64,000 bases of DNA from Streptomyces meridianus (lineage in GTDB: Bacteria > Actinomycetota > Actinomycetes > Streptomycetales > Streptomycetaceae): NCBI RefSeq assembly GCF_023703325.1, contig NZ_JAMQGM010000039.1, positions 62,001-126,000 on the forward strand, written 5' to 3'. Under the pieces are notes generated by a model. The model had not been told where the DNA came from. It made no database searches and saw nothing but the letters and a program-made list of their open reading frames with translations. The first letter of the stretch is position 1; each line of letters opens with the position of its first letter. The position numbers were made by a program, and so were the translations under genes. This document shows, piece by piece, positions 54,360 through 57,797 of the stretch.

Positions 54360-55562
54360 TCAGCCGGGGGAGGCCGTGCGGAACCGGCGGAAGAACGTCC
54401 GGATGTCGTCGACCAGCAGGTCGGGCTCCTCCATCGCGGCGAAGTGACCGCCCCGGTCGAACTCCGACCATTGGACGATGTTGTTCGTCCGGTCCGCGAT
54501 GTGCCGCAGCGGAATGAAGTTCTCCTGCGGGAACGCGGCCAGCGCGGTCGGCGTCGTCGACGGCTCCGGGGGTGCACCCCAGTAGTCCGCGTGGGCGCGC
54601 TCGTAGTAGATGCGCGCGGACGATCCCGCAGTTCCGGTCAGCCAGTACAGCATCACGTTCGTGAGCAGCTGGTCGCGGTCGACGGCGTCCTCCGGCCGGT
54701 CCTGCGAGTCCGTCCACTCCATGAACTTCTCAGCGATCCAGGCCAGTTGCCCCACCGGGGAGTCGGTGAGGGCGTAGGCGAGGGTCTGCGGACGGGTGGA
54801 CTGGATGTCCGCGTAGCCCTGGCGATCCCGGTTCCACTCCCGGGTCCGTTCCCAGGAGGCCAGCGTGCGCGCACGTTCGGCCGAGTCGAGTCCGGCCAGT
54901 GTCTCCGCGGTCGGTTCCGTGACGGCAGCGGTCCCGGGGATCAGGTTCAGATGGACGCCGACGACCCGATCGGGACGGATGCGGCCGAGCTCGCGGGAGA
55001 CGGCCGAGCCCCAGTCGCCGCCCTGTGCGCCGTACCGCCGGTAGCCGAGGCGCTCCATCAGCTCCGCGAACGCGGCGGCGATCCGCCGGTACTCCCAGCC
55101 GGTCTCCCGGGTCGGCCCGGAGAAGCCGAATCCGGGAATGCTCGGTATCACCAGGTGAAAGGCGTCGGAGGGGTCCGCTCCGTGGGTGCGCGGGTCGGTC
55201 AGCGGGCCGGTGATCCCGGTGAACTCCACGATGGAGCCAGGCCAGCCGTGCGTGATGATCAACGGGACCGCGTCGGGTTCCGGTGAACGGACGTGGGCGA
55301 AGTGGATCTTTGCTCCGTCGACGGTGGTGGTGGACTGCGGCCACCGGTTCAGCCGGGCCTCGGCGGCGCGCCAGTCGTACCCGTGACGCCAGTAGCGGAC
55401 GAGTTCCTGCAGGTAGTCGCGCGGGATCCCGTACGCCCAGCCGACACCGGGCAGTTGATCCGGCCACCGGGTGCGGTCCAGGCGCTGGTTCAGGTCCTCC
55501 AGCTCGCTGTCGGGGACGGCGATGCGGAAGGGGTGGATGCCGTCGTCGGCCGGAGTGGTCAT
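54360..55562 (-). CDS. Epoxide hydrolase family protein (EHN domain plus alpha/beta hydrolase)
   Basis: The 400-residue enzyme begins with the epoxide-hydrolase N-terminal domain (IHPFRIAVPDSELEDLNQRL, and RTRWPDQLPGVGWAYGI near 30-46). The hydrolase domain follows: oxyanion motif ITHGWPGSIVEF near 105, nucleophile aspartate in GAQGGDWGSAV near 180, and the catalytic histidine in RGGHFAAMEEPDLL near 370. A tyrosine pair for epoxide activation is plausible in the lid. Such microsomal-type enzymes turn epoxides into diols for detoxification or secondary metabolism. ATG 55562 is used; ATG 55571 is an alternative. Single gene. Confidence 0.92.
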   Translation of the reverse strand: MTTPADDGIHPFRIAVPDSELEDLNQRLDRTRWPDQLPGVGWAYGIPRDYLQELVRYWRHGYDWRAAEARLNRWPQSTTTVDGAKIHFAHVRSPEPDAVPLIITHGWPGSIVEFTGITGPLTDPRTHGADPSDAFHLVIPSIPGFGFSGPTRETGWEYRRIAAAFAELMERLGYRRYGAQGGDWGSAVSRELGRIRPDRVVGVHLNLIPGTAAVTEPTAETLAGLDSAERARTLASWERTREWNRDRQGYADIQSTRPQTLAYALTDSPVGQLAWIAEKFMEWTDSQDRPEDAVDRDQLLTNVMLYWLTGTAGSSARIYYERAHADYWGAPPEPSTTPTALAAFPQENFIPLRHIADRTNNIVQWSEFDRGGHFAAMEEPDLLVDDIRTFFRRFRTASPG

Positions 55563-56066
55563 GGGGCGCATGCTAGGCGGCGCCCGGCCGGGACGGGAGC
55601 GCACGCCATGACGGAGGACGCGGGGAGGCGGGGGAAGGCGTCCCGCCAGGTGTGCGGTGGCACGATGCGGAGGATCCGCAGGCAGCGAGGCGGCCCGACT
55701 CGCCGTGGCCACCGCTCGGTTCGGCTCCGGACGAGGTCTGATGCGCCCCCGGCTGCCGGGACTTGCCGGCGGGCCCGCAGAGCGGCGGAGGCGGACGGCG
55801 TCCGGTCCGGGGGCCACCGCACCAACTGCGAGCGACGAAGCGGAATGTCCCGCGGACCCGGCGGGGTGATGCGTTCGCAAGGTTGCTCGACAGCCCCAAA
55901 CAATGATTGCATCACGCGTCGACGCGGTGTCGGCAGTCGTGCCGCGCCGCCCTGCCCGCAATCCCCGGTGCCTTGCGATCGTCGACCGGGCACTGCAAGG
56001 ACAGGAACCGAGAACGGTGACCGCCCACCCCGGACGGTCGGTGCGCGCCGCTCAGAAGGGAGCAAC
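55563..56066. other. Intergenic region, no gene seen
   Basis: These 504 bases separate the divergent epoxide hydrolase and cysteine-motif protein genes. Open frames on both strands are Arg/Pro/Ala-rich shadows without start signals. The AT-richer segment around 55880-55915 (CAAACAATGATTGCATCACG) may hold a promoter. No RNA or repeat is seen. Confidence 0.4.
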
Positions 56067-56570
56067 GTGGGTTGCTCACACGCTGCAGCATGTCCGCTCT
56101 TCCCCTTGCTCAAATCGAGCCTGCAGGGGTGGCGCGACCACTACTGCGACAGCCAGGACAGGTGGCTCGAGTGCGCGCGCTACCAGATGTCGCTCACCGG
56201 CGAGCGTGTGCCGATCAGTCTGCTGCCCAACGGGCACCAGGCACTGCACCTCGCGTCCCAGGCCAACTGGTCCGGTACGGTCGCGGAGGCGCAGGCACCG
56301 CGGCGGGCGCCCCGGCAGGAAGCCGCACAGGAAGCCCTTTCGGATTTCCGCCGGGAGTTCCGTGAGGAACCGCCGATGTCCGATCCGCGGTCGCGGGACA
56401 CCGTGCACCGGTTCGAACCGGCCCTCCCGCCGGTCACGCCGCGGCACCGTCAGCCGTCGCAGCAAACCCAGTCCCCCCAGCCACAGGACCGCCCCGCCGG
56501 CCACTCGCGCCGAGCGGCGAAGCGCGGCCTGTGGGCCCGGCTCGTCGATTGGATGACAAGCCCCTCATGA
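56067..56570 (+). CDS. Small protein with a conserved CPxF...YC...CxRY...VPxxLLPNG domain, unknown function
   Basis: GTG 56067 follows GAAGGGAG closely and encodes 167 residues. Residues 9-60 contain CPLFPLLKSS, YCDS (Cys27), CARYQMS (Cys36) and GERVPISLLPNGH, a pattern I recall from uncharacterised small proteins in many bacteria. Cys3 and Cys9 make four cysteines in all, enough for a zinc or iron-sulfur site or for sulfur carriage. The C-terminal half is Pro/Gln/Arg-rich and ends with RAAKRGLWARLVDWM, perhaps an amphipathic membrane-binding helix. Its stop overlaps the YeeE gene start (ATGA), so the products are probably linked. Confidence 0.75.
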   Translation: MGCSHAAACPLFPLLKSSLQGWRDHYCDSQDRWLECARYQMSLTGERVPISLLPNGHQALHLASQANWSGTVAEAQAPRRAPRQEAAQEALSDFRREFREEPPMSDPRSRDTVHRFEPALPPVTPRHRQPSQQTQSPQPQDRPAGHSRRAAKRGLWARLVDWMTSPS

Positions 56571-57223
56571 GTACTTACTGGCCCTGGTGGGCGGGCGCCC
56601 TCGGGCTCGCCCTGGTGACCGTCCTCCACACCGTTGTCACCGGTCGCTCGCTGGGCATCTCGTCGGCGTGGGACCGCGTCCTGCACTGGCGCCGTGAACG
56701 CCGGATCGAGCGGCTGGAAGAGGAGTTCACCGACGAGAAGGCGCTCGCCGACGCCCTCGCCGCGGCCACCGCCGAGCACTTCGGGACCGTGCCCGCAGCG
56801 CCGGCCGCCGCGTACGCCCCGCAGGGGGAGACCGGGCCTGCGCCATGGGACGAGGAGCCGGCCCCGCCTGCCGCAGCTTCGGCCGCCAACCAGCGGCCGG
56901 CCCCGTTGTTCACCCAGGCCGCCCTGCTGGTGTCGGTCTTCGTCGGCGGACTGATCGCCGCGGTCACCTCCGGACGATTCGATCTCCGTCTCGACATGGG
57001 CCCCGGGTTCCGGGACATGGTCACGGCCGACCCCTGGATCATGACCGCTGTGCTGTTCGCCGGAGGCGTGCTGGTCGGCTTCGGCACACGCCTGGCGGGC
57101 GGGTGCAGCTCCGGCCACGGCCTGAGCGGCTGCGGCCGTCTGCGCCCGGTCAGCATCGTCGCGACCGCCGTGTTCTTCGGTACCGCCTCCGCGGTGTCGT
57201 TCCTCCTGTGGAAGGTGATCTGA
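56567..57223 (+). CDS. YeeE/YedE-family sulfur transporter, first half
   Basis: The 218-residue membrane protein starts STYWPWWAGALGLALVTVLH. It has one N-terminal helix, a cytoplasmic insert of about 85 residues rich in Glu, Ala and Pro (ERRIERLEEEFTDEKALA), and three more helices. The conserved YeeE motif GFGTRLAGGCSSGHGLSGCG lies near 178-197; its cysteine is the sulfur-relay type residue in thiosulfate transporters such as TsuA. Here the usual single protein is split in two genes. The stop overlaps the next start (TGATG). Thiosulfate or other sulfur import is inferred from the family. Confidence 0.87.
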   Translation: MSTYWPWWAGALGLALVTVLHTVVTGRSLGISSAWDRVLHWRRERRIERLEEEFTDEKALADALAAATAEHFGTVPAAPAAAYAPQGETGPAPWDEEPAPPAAASAANQRPAPLFTQAALLVSVFVGGLIAAVTSGRFDLRLDMGPGFRDMVTADPWIMTAVLFAGGVLVGFGTRLAGGCSSGHGLSGCGRLRPVSIVATAVFFGTASAVSFLLWKVI

Positions 57224-57639
57224 TGCGCACGCGCGGCGCAGTGCTACTGGGCAACGTCCTCGCCGGACTGGCACTCGGCTTCGTCGTCACCAACATCGGC
57301 TTCGGTGACTACACCGAGCTCAACCGCATGTTCACCTTCCAGGACCTGCGCATGTTCCTCGCCTTCGCCGGGGCGGTCGCGATCATCGTGTGCGTCTTCG
57401 CCCTGCTGCGGGTCCGCCGCACGCCGGGCCGCATCCACGCCGGTGTGGTCCCCGGCGCGGTGCTGTTCGGCACCGGCTGGGCGGTCTCCGGCGGGTGCCC
57501 GGCCATCCCGATCATCCAGGTCGCCAGCGGCTATCTGCCGGCGGTGATCACCATCGTCGGCGTCGTCGTCGGAATGCGGCTGTGCCGCTGGGCCAACGGC
57601 CGGTACTTCCACCTCGACAGGGGGTCCTGCGGGCTCTGA
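57223..57639 (+). CDS. YeeE/YedE-family sulfur transporter, second half (DUF6691-like)
   Basis: The 138-residue protein has four helices. Its conserved motif GTGWAVSGGCPAIPIIQVASG (about 86-106, given here in two overlapping parts GTGWAVSGGC and GCPAIPIIQ) matches the second cysteine motif of YeeE proteins. Together with the preceding gene it makes the full pseudo-symmetric transporter. Split YeeE pairs occur in other bacteria near sulfide or persulfide enzymes; none is adjacent here. ATG 57223 overlaps the preceding stop. A terminator follows. Confidence 0.85.
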   Translation: MRTRGAVLLGNVLAGLALGFVVTNIGFGDYTELNRMFTFQDLRMFLAFAGAVAIIVCVFALLRVRRTPGRIHAGVVPGAVLFGTGWAVSGGCPAIPIIQVASGYLPAVITIVGVVVGMRLCRWANGRYFHLDRGSCGL

Positions 57640-57670
57640 CCCGGCGCTCCGCCAGGATCTGCACGGCTTC

Positions 57671-57697
57671 GGGCCGACGGTGACGAACCGTCGGCCC
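57671..57697 (+). terminator. Terminator of the sulfur-transporter operon
   Basis: Perfect 11-bp stem GGGCCGACGGT / ACCGTCGGCCC with loop GACGA, followed by GGAGGTGTTTTCG, begins 32 bases after the stop. Confidence 0.85.
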
Positions 57698-57797
57698 GGA
57701 GGTGTTTTCGGCGGGTGGTGGAGGCCCGGCCGGTTCCCCCGCTCTCCGGGTGCGCCGCGGCTCCCGCCCCGGCAGGGGACCGTGGCAGGGTTGCCGT

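Follow-up and report, generated by a model that had tools for sequence, protein, structure and literature searches.

A split YeeE/YedE transporter module with a constant four-cysteine partner protein in Streptomyces

Split YeeE/YedE channels are pairs of short membrane proteins, whose hand-over of sulfur to the cytoplasm is at issue. Here we report an analysis of a three-gene module encoded in 64,000 nucleotides of Streptomyces meridianus DNA (contig NZ_JAMQGM010000039.1, positions 62,001 to 126,000; hereafter referred to as the window), which belongs to an assembly of 5.6 Mb in 93 contigs. The module encodes a soluble four-cysteine protein (P1) and the two halves of a YeeE/YedE transporter (P2 and P3), and is carried as a unit by a minority of Streptomyces. 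The four cysteines of P1 are invariant, and its C-terminal tail recurs on an unrelated six-cysteine protein that most relatives encode next to the module. The module is genuine and looks like an undescribed form of a known type of transporter, to which it adds an uncatalogued domain and a sibling that shares the tail of P1. Its gene set suggests that imported sulfur is controlled or received in a way not yet described. Our preferred reading, held with a little less than even confidence, is that P1, P2 and P3 form a three-subunit importer for sulfane (zero-valent) sulfur, in which P1 would act as a docked metal-domain subunit for sensing or gating. The module thereby offers a constant candidate partner for split channels; the uncatalogued domain of P1 occurs on a DNA-repair-type enzyme too, and the docking-like helix is common to two unrelated cysteine proteins, in a genus that is reported to respond to sulfane sulfur (PMC7533328).

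The split YedE1E2 pair is reported to import zero-valent sulfur and to require both conserved cysteines, whereas one-gene YedE3 forms did not import it, and the survey in that report places split-pair genes mostly in Proteobacteria (PMC10812762). A yeeE–yedE–pdo2 operon is described as being under BigR (PMC7315123). A Streptomyces coelicolor circuit senses and removes sulfane sulfur, which is reported to promote antibiotic production and sporulation in Streptomyces (PMC7533328). No module of the present kind was described in the titles or abstract openings that we searched; subscription journals lie mostly outside this coverage, so that novelty is not proven.

The three genes form a co-inherited operon

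The module consists of three overlapping genes on the plus strand (56067–57639 of the window). P1 (56067–56570) has a GTG start and encodes 167 residues, comprising a four-cysteine domain (residues 1–62), a Pro-rich variable linker and a conserved C-terminal helix. P2 (56567–57223; 218 residues) overlaps P1 through an ATGA junction, and P3 (57223–57639; 138 residues) overlaps P2 through a TGATG junction. An intrinsic-terminator-like hairpin of 15 pairs, 11 of them G–C, lies at the operon end (57667–57701, plus strand). The layout that an earlier note had read from the window, with both junctions and a single terminator, thus holds. The ATGA junction recurs at 44 of 44 related loci and the TGATG junction at 42, the remaining two being truncated by contig ends. 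The ratio of non-synonymous to synonymous polymorphism (pN/pS) is 0.26 for the P1 domain and 0.55 for the P1 tail (45 sequences each), 0.35 for the conserved parts of P2 and 0.24 for P3 (43 sequences each).

The earlier note had proposed counting how often the P1 domain and split YeeE genes occur together, and they do so in both directions (43/43 and 25/25). A contig scan with the P1 domain gave 58 stretches with the pattern, from which 43 loci were confirmed (L037–L079): 41 in Streptomyces records, one in Saccharopolyspora rosea and one in an actinomycete metagenome-assembled genome. P2 follows P1 in all 43 loci (partially in L063 and L072, at contig ends), and P3 is present in the other 41. 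Searched in reverse from P2, 25 of 392 genomes of the genus match, and every one has P1 upstream and P3 downstream, while a P2 search of 345 genomes of the class matched only the source genome; the absences are soft counts, as only some candidates per genome were scored in both P2 searches. Two of five matches in the P1 search (E 5e-4 and 7e-4) fall in long frames without nearby P2 or P3, and these, together with a 7e-4 match from another scan, were not counted. S. carpinensis carries two whole copies of the module (L054, L069), and in one further strain both copies (L063, L072) run off the end of a contig; identical P1 proteins link two genus-mates to named Streptomyces (L002 with L057, L003 with L042). 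Because neither the co-occurrence test nor the test of cysteine conservation described below refuted it, the undescribed functional unit suggested by the earlier note is supported around the split pair, although the split itself is known from PmpAB, as reported in PMC11582611.

Frame clustering over the 43 loci and the window revealed no other widespread gene-like neighbour family, with a rough gene caller that mostly missed the small divergent gene described below. After the module and antisense frames, the next cluster was a protein-kinase-like frame, in 9 of 44 stretches and at scattered places. The module might be a sulfur-state sensor rather than a nutritional importer, with P1, along with the six-cysteine protein, reporting a trickle of sulfane sulfur to a partner encoded elsewhere. 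The lack of a widespread neighbour family found with this caller fits such an arrangement, and YeeE-like SoxT proteins are said to serve both sulfur import for oxidation and signal transduction (PMC11582611). However, we saw no regulator gene conserved beside the module, the kinase-like frame being scattered, and we regard this reading as improbable.

P2 and P3 are the halves of a split transporter

Both P2 and P3 score above the PF04143 cut-off, P2 over profile positions 176–307 of 310 (E 7e-11) and P3 over positions 10–101 (E 1.5e-8), and no further PF04143 match was found in the source genome. Each has four hydrophobic regions by hydropathy. In the published alignment, PmpB corresponds to the N-terminal half of TsuA and PmpA to the C-terminal half, with cysteines equivalent to Cys91 and Cys293 (PMC11582611). 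Judged by sequence, P2 is the PmpA/YedE-like half, matching the C-terminal half of TsuA/YeeE, and P3 is the PmpB/DUF6691-like half, matching the N-terminal half. The GGCSSGHG motif of P2 (57098–57121, plus strand), in which Cys180, Ser182, Gly183, His184 and Gly185 are invariant in 29 rows, contains the equivalent of TsuA Cys293, and the GGCPAIP motif of P3 (57490–57510, plus strand), with Cys92 invariant in 23 rows, contains that of Cys91. The two halves that the earlier note had recognized by these motifs are therefore confirmed; cysteines beyond the one motif cysteine per half are also conserved in the pair.

P3 scores 20.7 bits against the DUF6691 model (E 5e-4; cut-off 27), and its best tblastn match to annotated plasmid DUF6691 proteins has an E value of 2e-7 (among the best 15 of 117 records). 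Because the PF04143 halves match PmpA and PmpB (PMC11582611) and P3 matches annotated DUF6691 proteins, the split of the transporter is of an already known kind. The resemblance to one-gene TsuA is distant: P2 reaches 35.7 bits with NF052577, whose cut-off is 400, and 23.3 with NF041049, whose cut-off is 645, and neither half is the single protein of 330–350 residues that defines that form. A profile–profile comparison of P2 with P3 aligned only the 19-residue motif region. Among 116 sampled Actinomycetes genomes, eight others have PF04143, all in the one-gene form.

A comparison with three ordinary split pairs, from Runella, Halobaculum and Sphingomonas plasmids, shows what the module shares with PmpAB/YedE1E2 and what sets it apart. 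Both consist of two short membrane proteins in the same order (C-terminal half, then N-terminal half), each with roughly four hydrophobic regions and a single motif cysteine (GGC-SGHG in one, GCP in the other), and P2 aligns with the three ordinary PmpA proteins at 29%. By contrast, the module has a constant P1, whereas the ordinary pairs have no adjoining P1-like gene by annotation. Furthermore, the loop that separates the first two hydrophobic regions of P2 (56675–56902, plus strand) is longer, containing a conserved RVLHWRRER...ALAAATAEHFG stretch followed by a variable linker, and P3 ends in GSCGL (57622–57636, plus strand) with an extra cysteine, Cys136, which is invariant in 23 of 23 alignment rows and in 43 of 43 P3 proteins; the long loop and the extra cysteine are both absent from the three ordinary pairs. 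The P2 loop may face the cytoplasm, and Cys136 is probably cytoplasmic by the positive-inside rule. A metallo-β-lactamase (MBL)-fold hydrolase gene lies immediately upstream of two of the three ordinary pairs, whereas no constant neighbour was found outside the module.

The earlier note had named thiosulfate as what YeeE/TsuA proteins move. For the split pair, thiosulfate is not our best guess, because the tested split pairs import zero-valent sulfur and the fused forms beside them did not (PMC10812762).

P1 contains an uncatalogued four-cysteine domain

The four-cysteine domain of P1 (56067–56252, plus strand) spans about 58 residues with the pattern C-x5-CPLF-x-YC-x8-CARY-x-VPxxLLPNG. The window's P1 has Cys3, Cys9, Cys27 and Cys36 and all of the motifs (CPLF, YC, CARY and VPISLLPNG), in agreement with the earlier description of a 167-residue cysteine-motif protein. 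All 46 sequences (44 distinct, including that of the window) keep these four cysteines, and 45 of them lack any extra cysteine; His5, Trp22, Trp33 and Gly45 are likewise invariant. The looser pattern of C-x5-C, YC, CxR and VP-LP[ND]G with four cysteines fits all 46 proteins. The linker that follows contains 12–29% Pro and varies in length. P1 appears soluble by hydropathy, with a maximal KD19 value of 1.03 and no segment over the transmembrane threshold used.

The domain matched no Pfam or NCBIfam model, the sole Pfam match of P1 being at chance level and in the linker. P1 gave no match to PF01206 (TusA) at E 10 and fell into no NCBIfam family, and a PDB search gave no match, the best being a chance-level E value of 1.8 with a profile of Streptomyces and distant forms of the domain (profile A7). 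WhiB-like (Wbl) iron–sulfur proteins are also small four-cysteine actinobacterial proteins. Unlike them, P1 has no Pfam WhiB match, and its cysteine spacing differs from that of Wbl proteins.

With profile A7, the domain was found in 14 of 396 genomes of the phylum, at 21 places (E ≤ 0.003). The 20 places outside the source genome all fit the four-cysteine pattern, with a looser LP[ND]G end in several. Two of them form the C-terminal ends of proteins accepted by the uracil-DNA glycosylase model PF03167 (L008 and L009, in genomes G439 and G498); no Pfam model covers this C-terminal part in either protein, and one of the two resembles type-4 glycosylases in an NCBIfam scan, below their cut-offs. 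Most of the remaining places are small stand-alone frames, and a weaker relative lies on a Leptolinea plasmid (E 1e-3). Apart from this distant domain, plasmid scans with P1, P2 or one form of the domain gave nothing, as did scans of viral contigs and phages with forms of the P1 domain. A broader domain scan reached 50 genomes at E ≤ 0.1 with mostly partial, noise-like matches, which were used only if refound with A7.

We considered whether the domain is specific to sulfur and rejected this, as no common sulfur gene was recognized around the distant relatives, inspected by eye over mostly 1.5–5 kb per side and without profile searches. Two observations run counter to that rejection: a disulfide-reductase-like gene lies at a distance of about 4 kb from one relative (L112), and genes for a 'redox-active disulfide protein' and a permease lie about 3 kb from the Leptolinea relative.

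The four-cysteine domain is most likely a metal site for zinc or an iron–sulfur cluster, as judged from its cysteine pattern; a metal site fits P1 better than a sulfur carrier does, because proteins in such varied contexts all retain the full set of four cysteines. The earlier note had offered P1 as an acceptor, sensor or gate of the transporter, and it is the first of these roles that is weakened by the recurrence of the four-cysteine pattern with no recognized sulfur gene immediately next to it. As an acceptor, P1 would resemble YeeD/TsuB and take sulfur relayed by the membrane cysteines onto a free cysteine of its own, before passing it onward. YeeD is the essential cytoplasmic partner of YeeE, and its conserved cysteine is proposed to take thiosulfate from the transporter (PMC11073785). 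Like YeeE/TsuA with YeeD/TsuB, the module combines a membrane sulfur transporter with an adjoining, dedicated cytoplasmic cysteine protein; P1 constantly accompanies the pair and its cysteines do not vary, P3 has a possible hand-over point in its extra, probably cytoplasmic C-terminal cysteine, and the one TusA-type gene detected in the genome is on a different contig. On the other hand, the module's transporter is split, and P1 has a linker, a tail and no Pfam TusA or YeeD match. Its four cysteines are retained together, whereas YeeD is reported to have just one or two conserved cysteines (PMC11073785), and the pattern recurs in the glycosylase fusion and in stand-alone proteins with no recognized sulfur gene directly adjoining. 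By analogy with YeeD, an acceptor role is conceivable for P1, and we consider it unlikely.

The tail of P1 is shared with a divergent six-cysteine protein

The C-terminal tail of P1 (KRGLWARLVDWMTSPS; 56520–56567, plus strand) has the consensus KRGWW-R-(F/L)--WM-GPA and is common to a divergent six-cysteine protein of other Streptomyces. AlphaFold2 predicts a helix at residues 151–164 with a predicted local distance difference test score (pLDDT) of about 80, within an otherwise poor model. An intact gene for the six-cysteine protein is present in 29 of the 43 loci, on the opposite strand and upstream of P1, with 364–472 bp between the two starts. Its product has 67–99 residues, with cysteines 2, 7, 10, 18, 35 and 37 conserved in 29 of 29, followed by a linker and the tail of P1. 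The gene is degenerate in L061, and none was found in 13 of the 43 loci, whether within 3 kb upstream or in the rest of the locus. Among the 25 loci from the genus search, it is whole in 16, interrupted by an internal stop in L089 and degenerate in L082; in genome G835 it lies downstream, on the same strand. Matches in L038, L042, L043, L046, L051, L093 and L097 correspond to the tail or linker of P1 itself and were not counted.

A profile of the P1 tail alone recovered 29 of 29 six-cysteine proteins (E 2e-10 to 4e-4), compared with 0.14 for the best of 941 controls, which were shuffles and other predicted frames; an earlier run recovered 28 of 28, against 0.25 for the best of 921. In 40 whole genomes, searched with a 14-row query alignment that had slips in three rows, tail matches with E < 1e-4 occur at the module only. 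The tail matched at P1 in 23 of 25 module genomes (0.004 and 0.09 in the other two) and about 1.2 kb away on the opposite strand in 15 of 25, whereas the best match in 15 module-free genomes, which lack P1, was 0.05. The P1 and six-cysteine domains are dissimilar (best blastp E 0.14; hhalign probability 0.1), and the tail is therefore the part that the two proteins share. Most simply, it would be a docking helix for a common partner.

The six-cysteine protein also provides a link to sulfane sulfur. Relatives were found in 37 plasmid records, 25 of which were listed, and we inspected 13 neighbourhoods, partly near-identical, using the records' own annotation. A rhodanese gene, an MBL-fold metallo-hydrolase gene or both lie within 3 kb in 10 of the 13, often with genes for a 'metal-sensitive transcriptional regulator', DsrE or TauE. 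The plasmid relatives end in a short GFFARLLGR-like stretch rather than the full tail. On three Arthrobacter plasmids (L166, L174 and L178), an unannotated 58-residue six-cysteine frame is flanked by a metal-sensitive regulator gene on one side and an MBL-fold hydrolase gene on the other; rhodanese and TauE genes come next. Similar kinds of gene make up the S. coelicolor circuit, which comprises a CsoR-like regulator, a persulfide dioxygenase, a rhodanese and a sulfite transporter (PMC7533328), whereas the module itself encodes none of them.

A substrate other than sulfur, such as selenium or another oxyanion, would agree with the best NCBIfam match of P3, a putative selenium YedE, which at 22.7 bits is far under its cut-off of 200, and the three genes could also be conserved neighbours with no physical link. 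However, the tail-sharing protein belongs to a family found mostly near rhodanese or MBL-fold hydrolase genes, and stop and start codons overlap in 44 of 44 loci; we consider either possibility very unlikely.

A model for the module

In the three-subunit importer that we favour, P2 and P3 would form the membrane channel, as a PmpAB/YedE1E2-type pair with one motif cysteine each, and P1 would be an obligate cytoplasmic subunit. The tail helix of P1 would dock on the channel, most likely at the P2 loop, whose length sets it apart from ordinary PmpA proteins, and the flexible linker would bring the four-cysteine domain within range of the channel mouth and of P3's additional C-terminal cysteine. 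The domain would hold a metal and sense or gate the sulfur flux, rather than carry sulfur on a free cysteine. In most relatives, the unrelated six-cysteine protein, with the same tail, would use the same docking site; in the strain of the window, this protein may have been lost or never present. The model builds on the observed gene unit, its co-inheritance, the conservation of the cysteines and the common tail, whereas its substrate, docking site, metal and gating role are inferred.

P1 might instead deliver a metal or an iron–sulfur cluster, or act as an assembly factor that stabilizes the split halves, with no role in transport. Its metal-like four-cysteine domain, flexible linker and docking-like tail would suit such a function, as would its co-inheritance with the pair. 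However, annotation shows no such partner for the three ordinary split pairs, split pairs are reported to be active in Escherichia coli as two genes (PMC10812762), and P2 and P3 have no obvious metal site. We consider this quite unlikely.

Several results weigh against the importer model. AlphaFold2 yielded no usable fold for either the P1 domain (mean pLDDT 54.5) or P2 (48.9), and neither model lends support to docking. The amphipathicity of the tail helix does not clearly exceed that of sequences shuffled from its residues, and we therefore describe it only as a conserved aromatic helix; it is also under weaker constraint than the P1 domain (pN/pS 0.55 versus 0.26). The P1 domain is tied to sulfur through its partners only. 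The six-cysteine gene was not found in the source genome, in a search that returned an empty result and had no positive control. Because 13 of 43 loci also lack it and one has only a degenerate copy, this gene is dispensable. Its plasmid relatives have six cysteines in 8 of 13 cases and five in the other 5, and three of their neighbourhoods (H3, H10 and H24) contain neither a rhodanese nor an MBL-fold hydrolase. The published ScCsoR palindrome did not occur with fewer than three mismatches in any of 28 divergent intergenic regions, and the idea of a CsoR-type operator there was rejected.

An extension of the docked-subunit model would make P1 and the six-cysteine protein exchangeable adaptors that compete, via the same docking helix, for one channel site, so that their balance sets whether sulfane sulfur is blocked, stored or passed to persulfide metabolism. 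This is speculative, and we give it a rather low probability.

The leader and upstream region

The operon leader (55900–56066, plus strand) contains, in a 26-sequence alignment, a ATGATTGCATCACGC-type block at about 55902–55917, then GATCGTCGACC and CCGAGAACGG blocks and a GGGAGC ribosome-binding site. Here and in the equivalent leaders of relatives, the conserved blocks ahead of P1 read TGGTTGCATCACGC, GATCGTCGACC and CCGAGAACGG. Despite this conservation, a structured RNA was rejected: the RNAalifold covariation term is a negligible −0.22 kcal/mol, and an Rfam scan of the leader gave nothing near a gathering score.

The place that the divergent six-cysteine gene takes in many relatives, upstream of P1, holds in the window a long minus-strand frame (54360–55961) that resembles an epoxide-hydrolase-type alpha/beta hydrolase.

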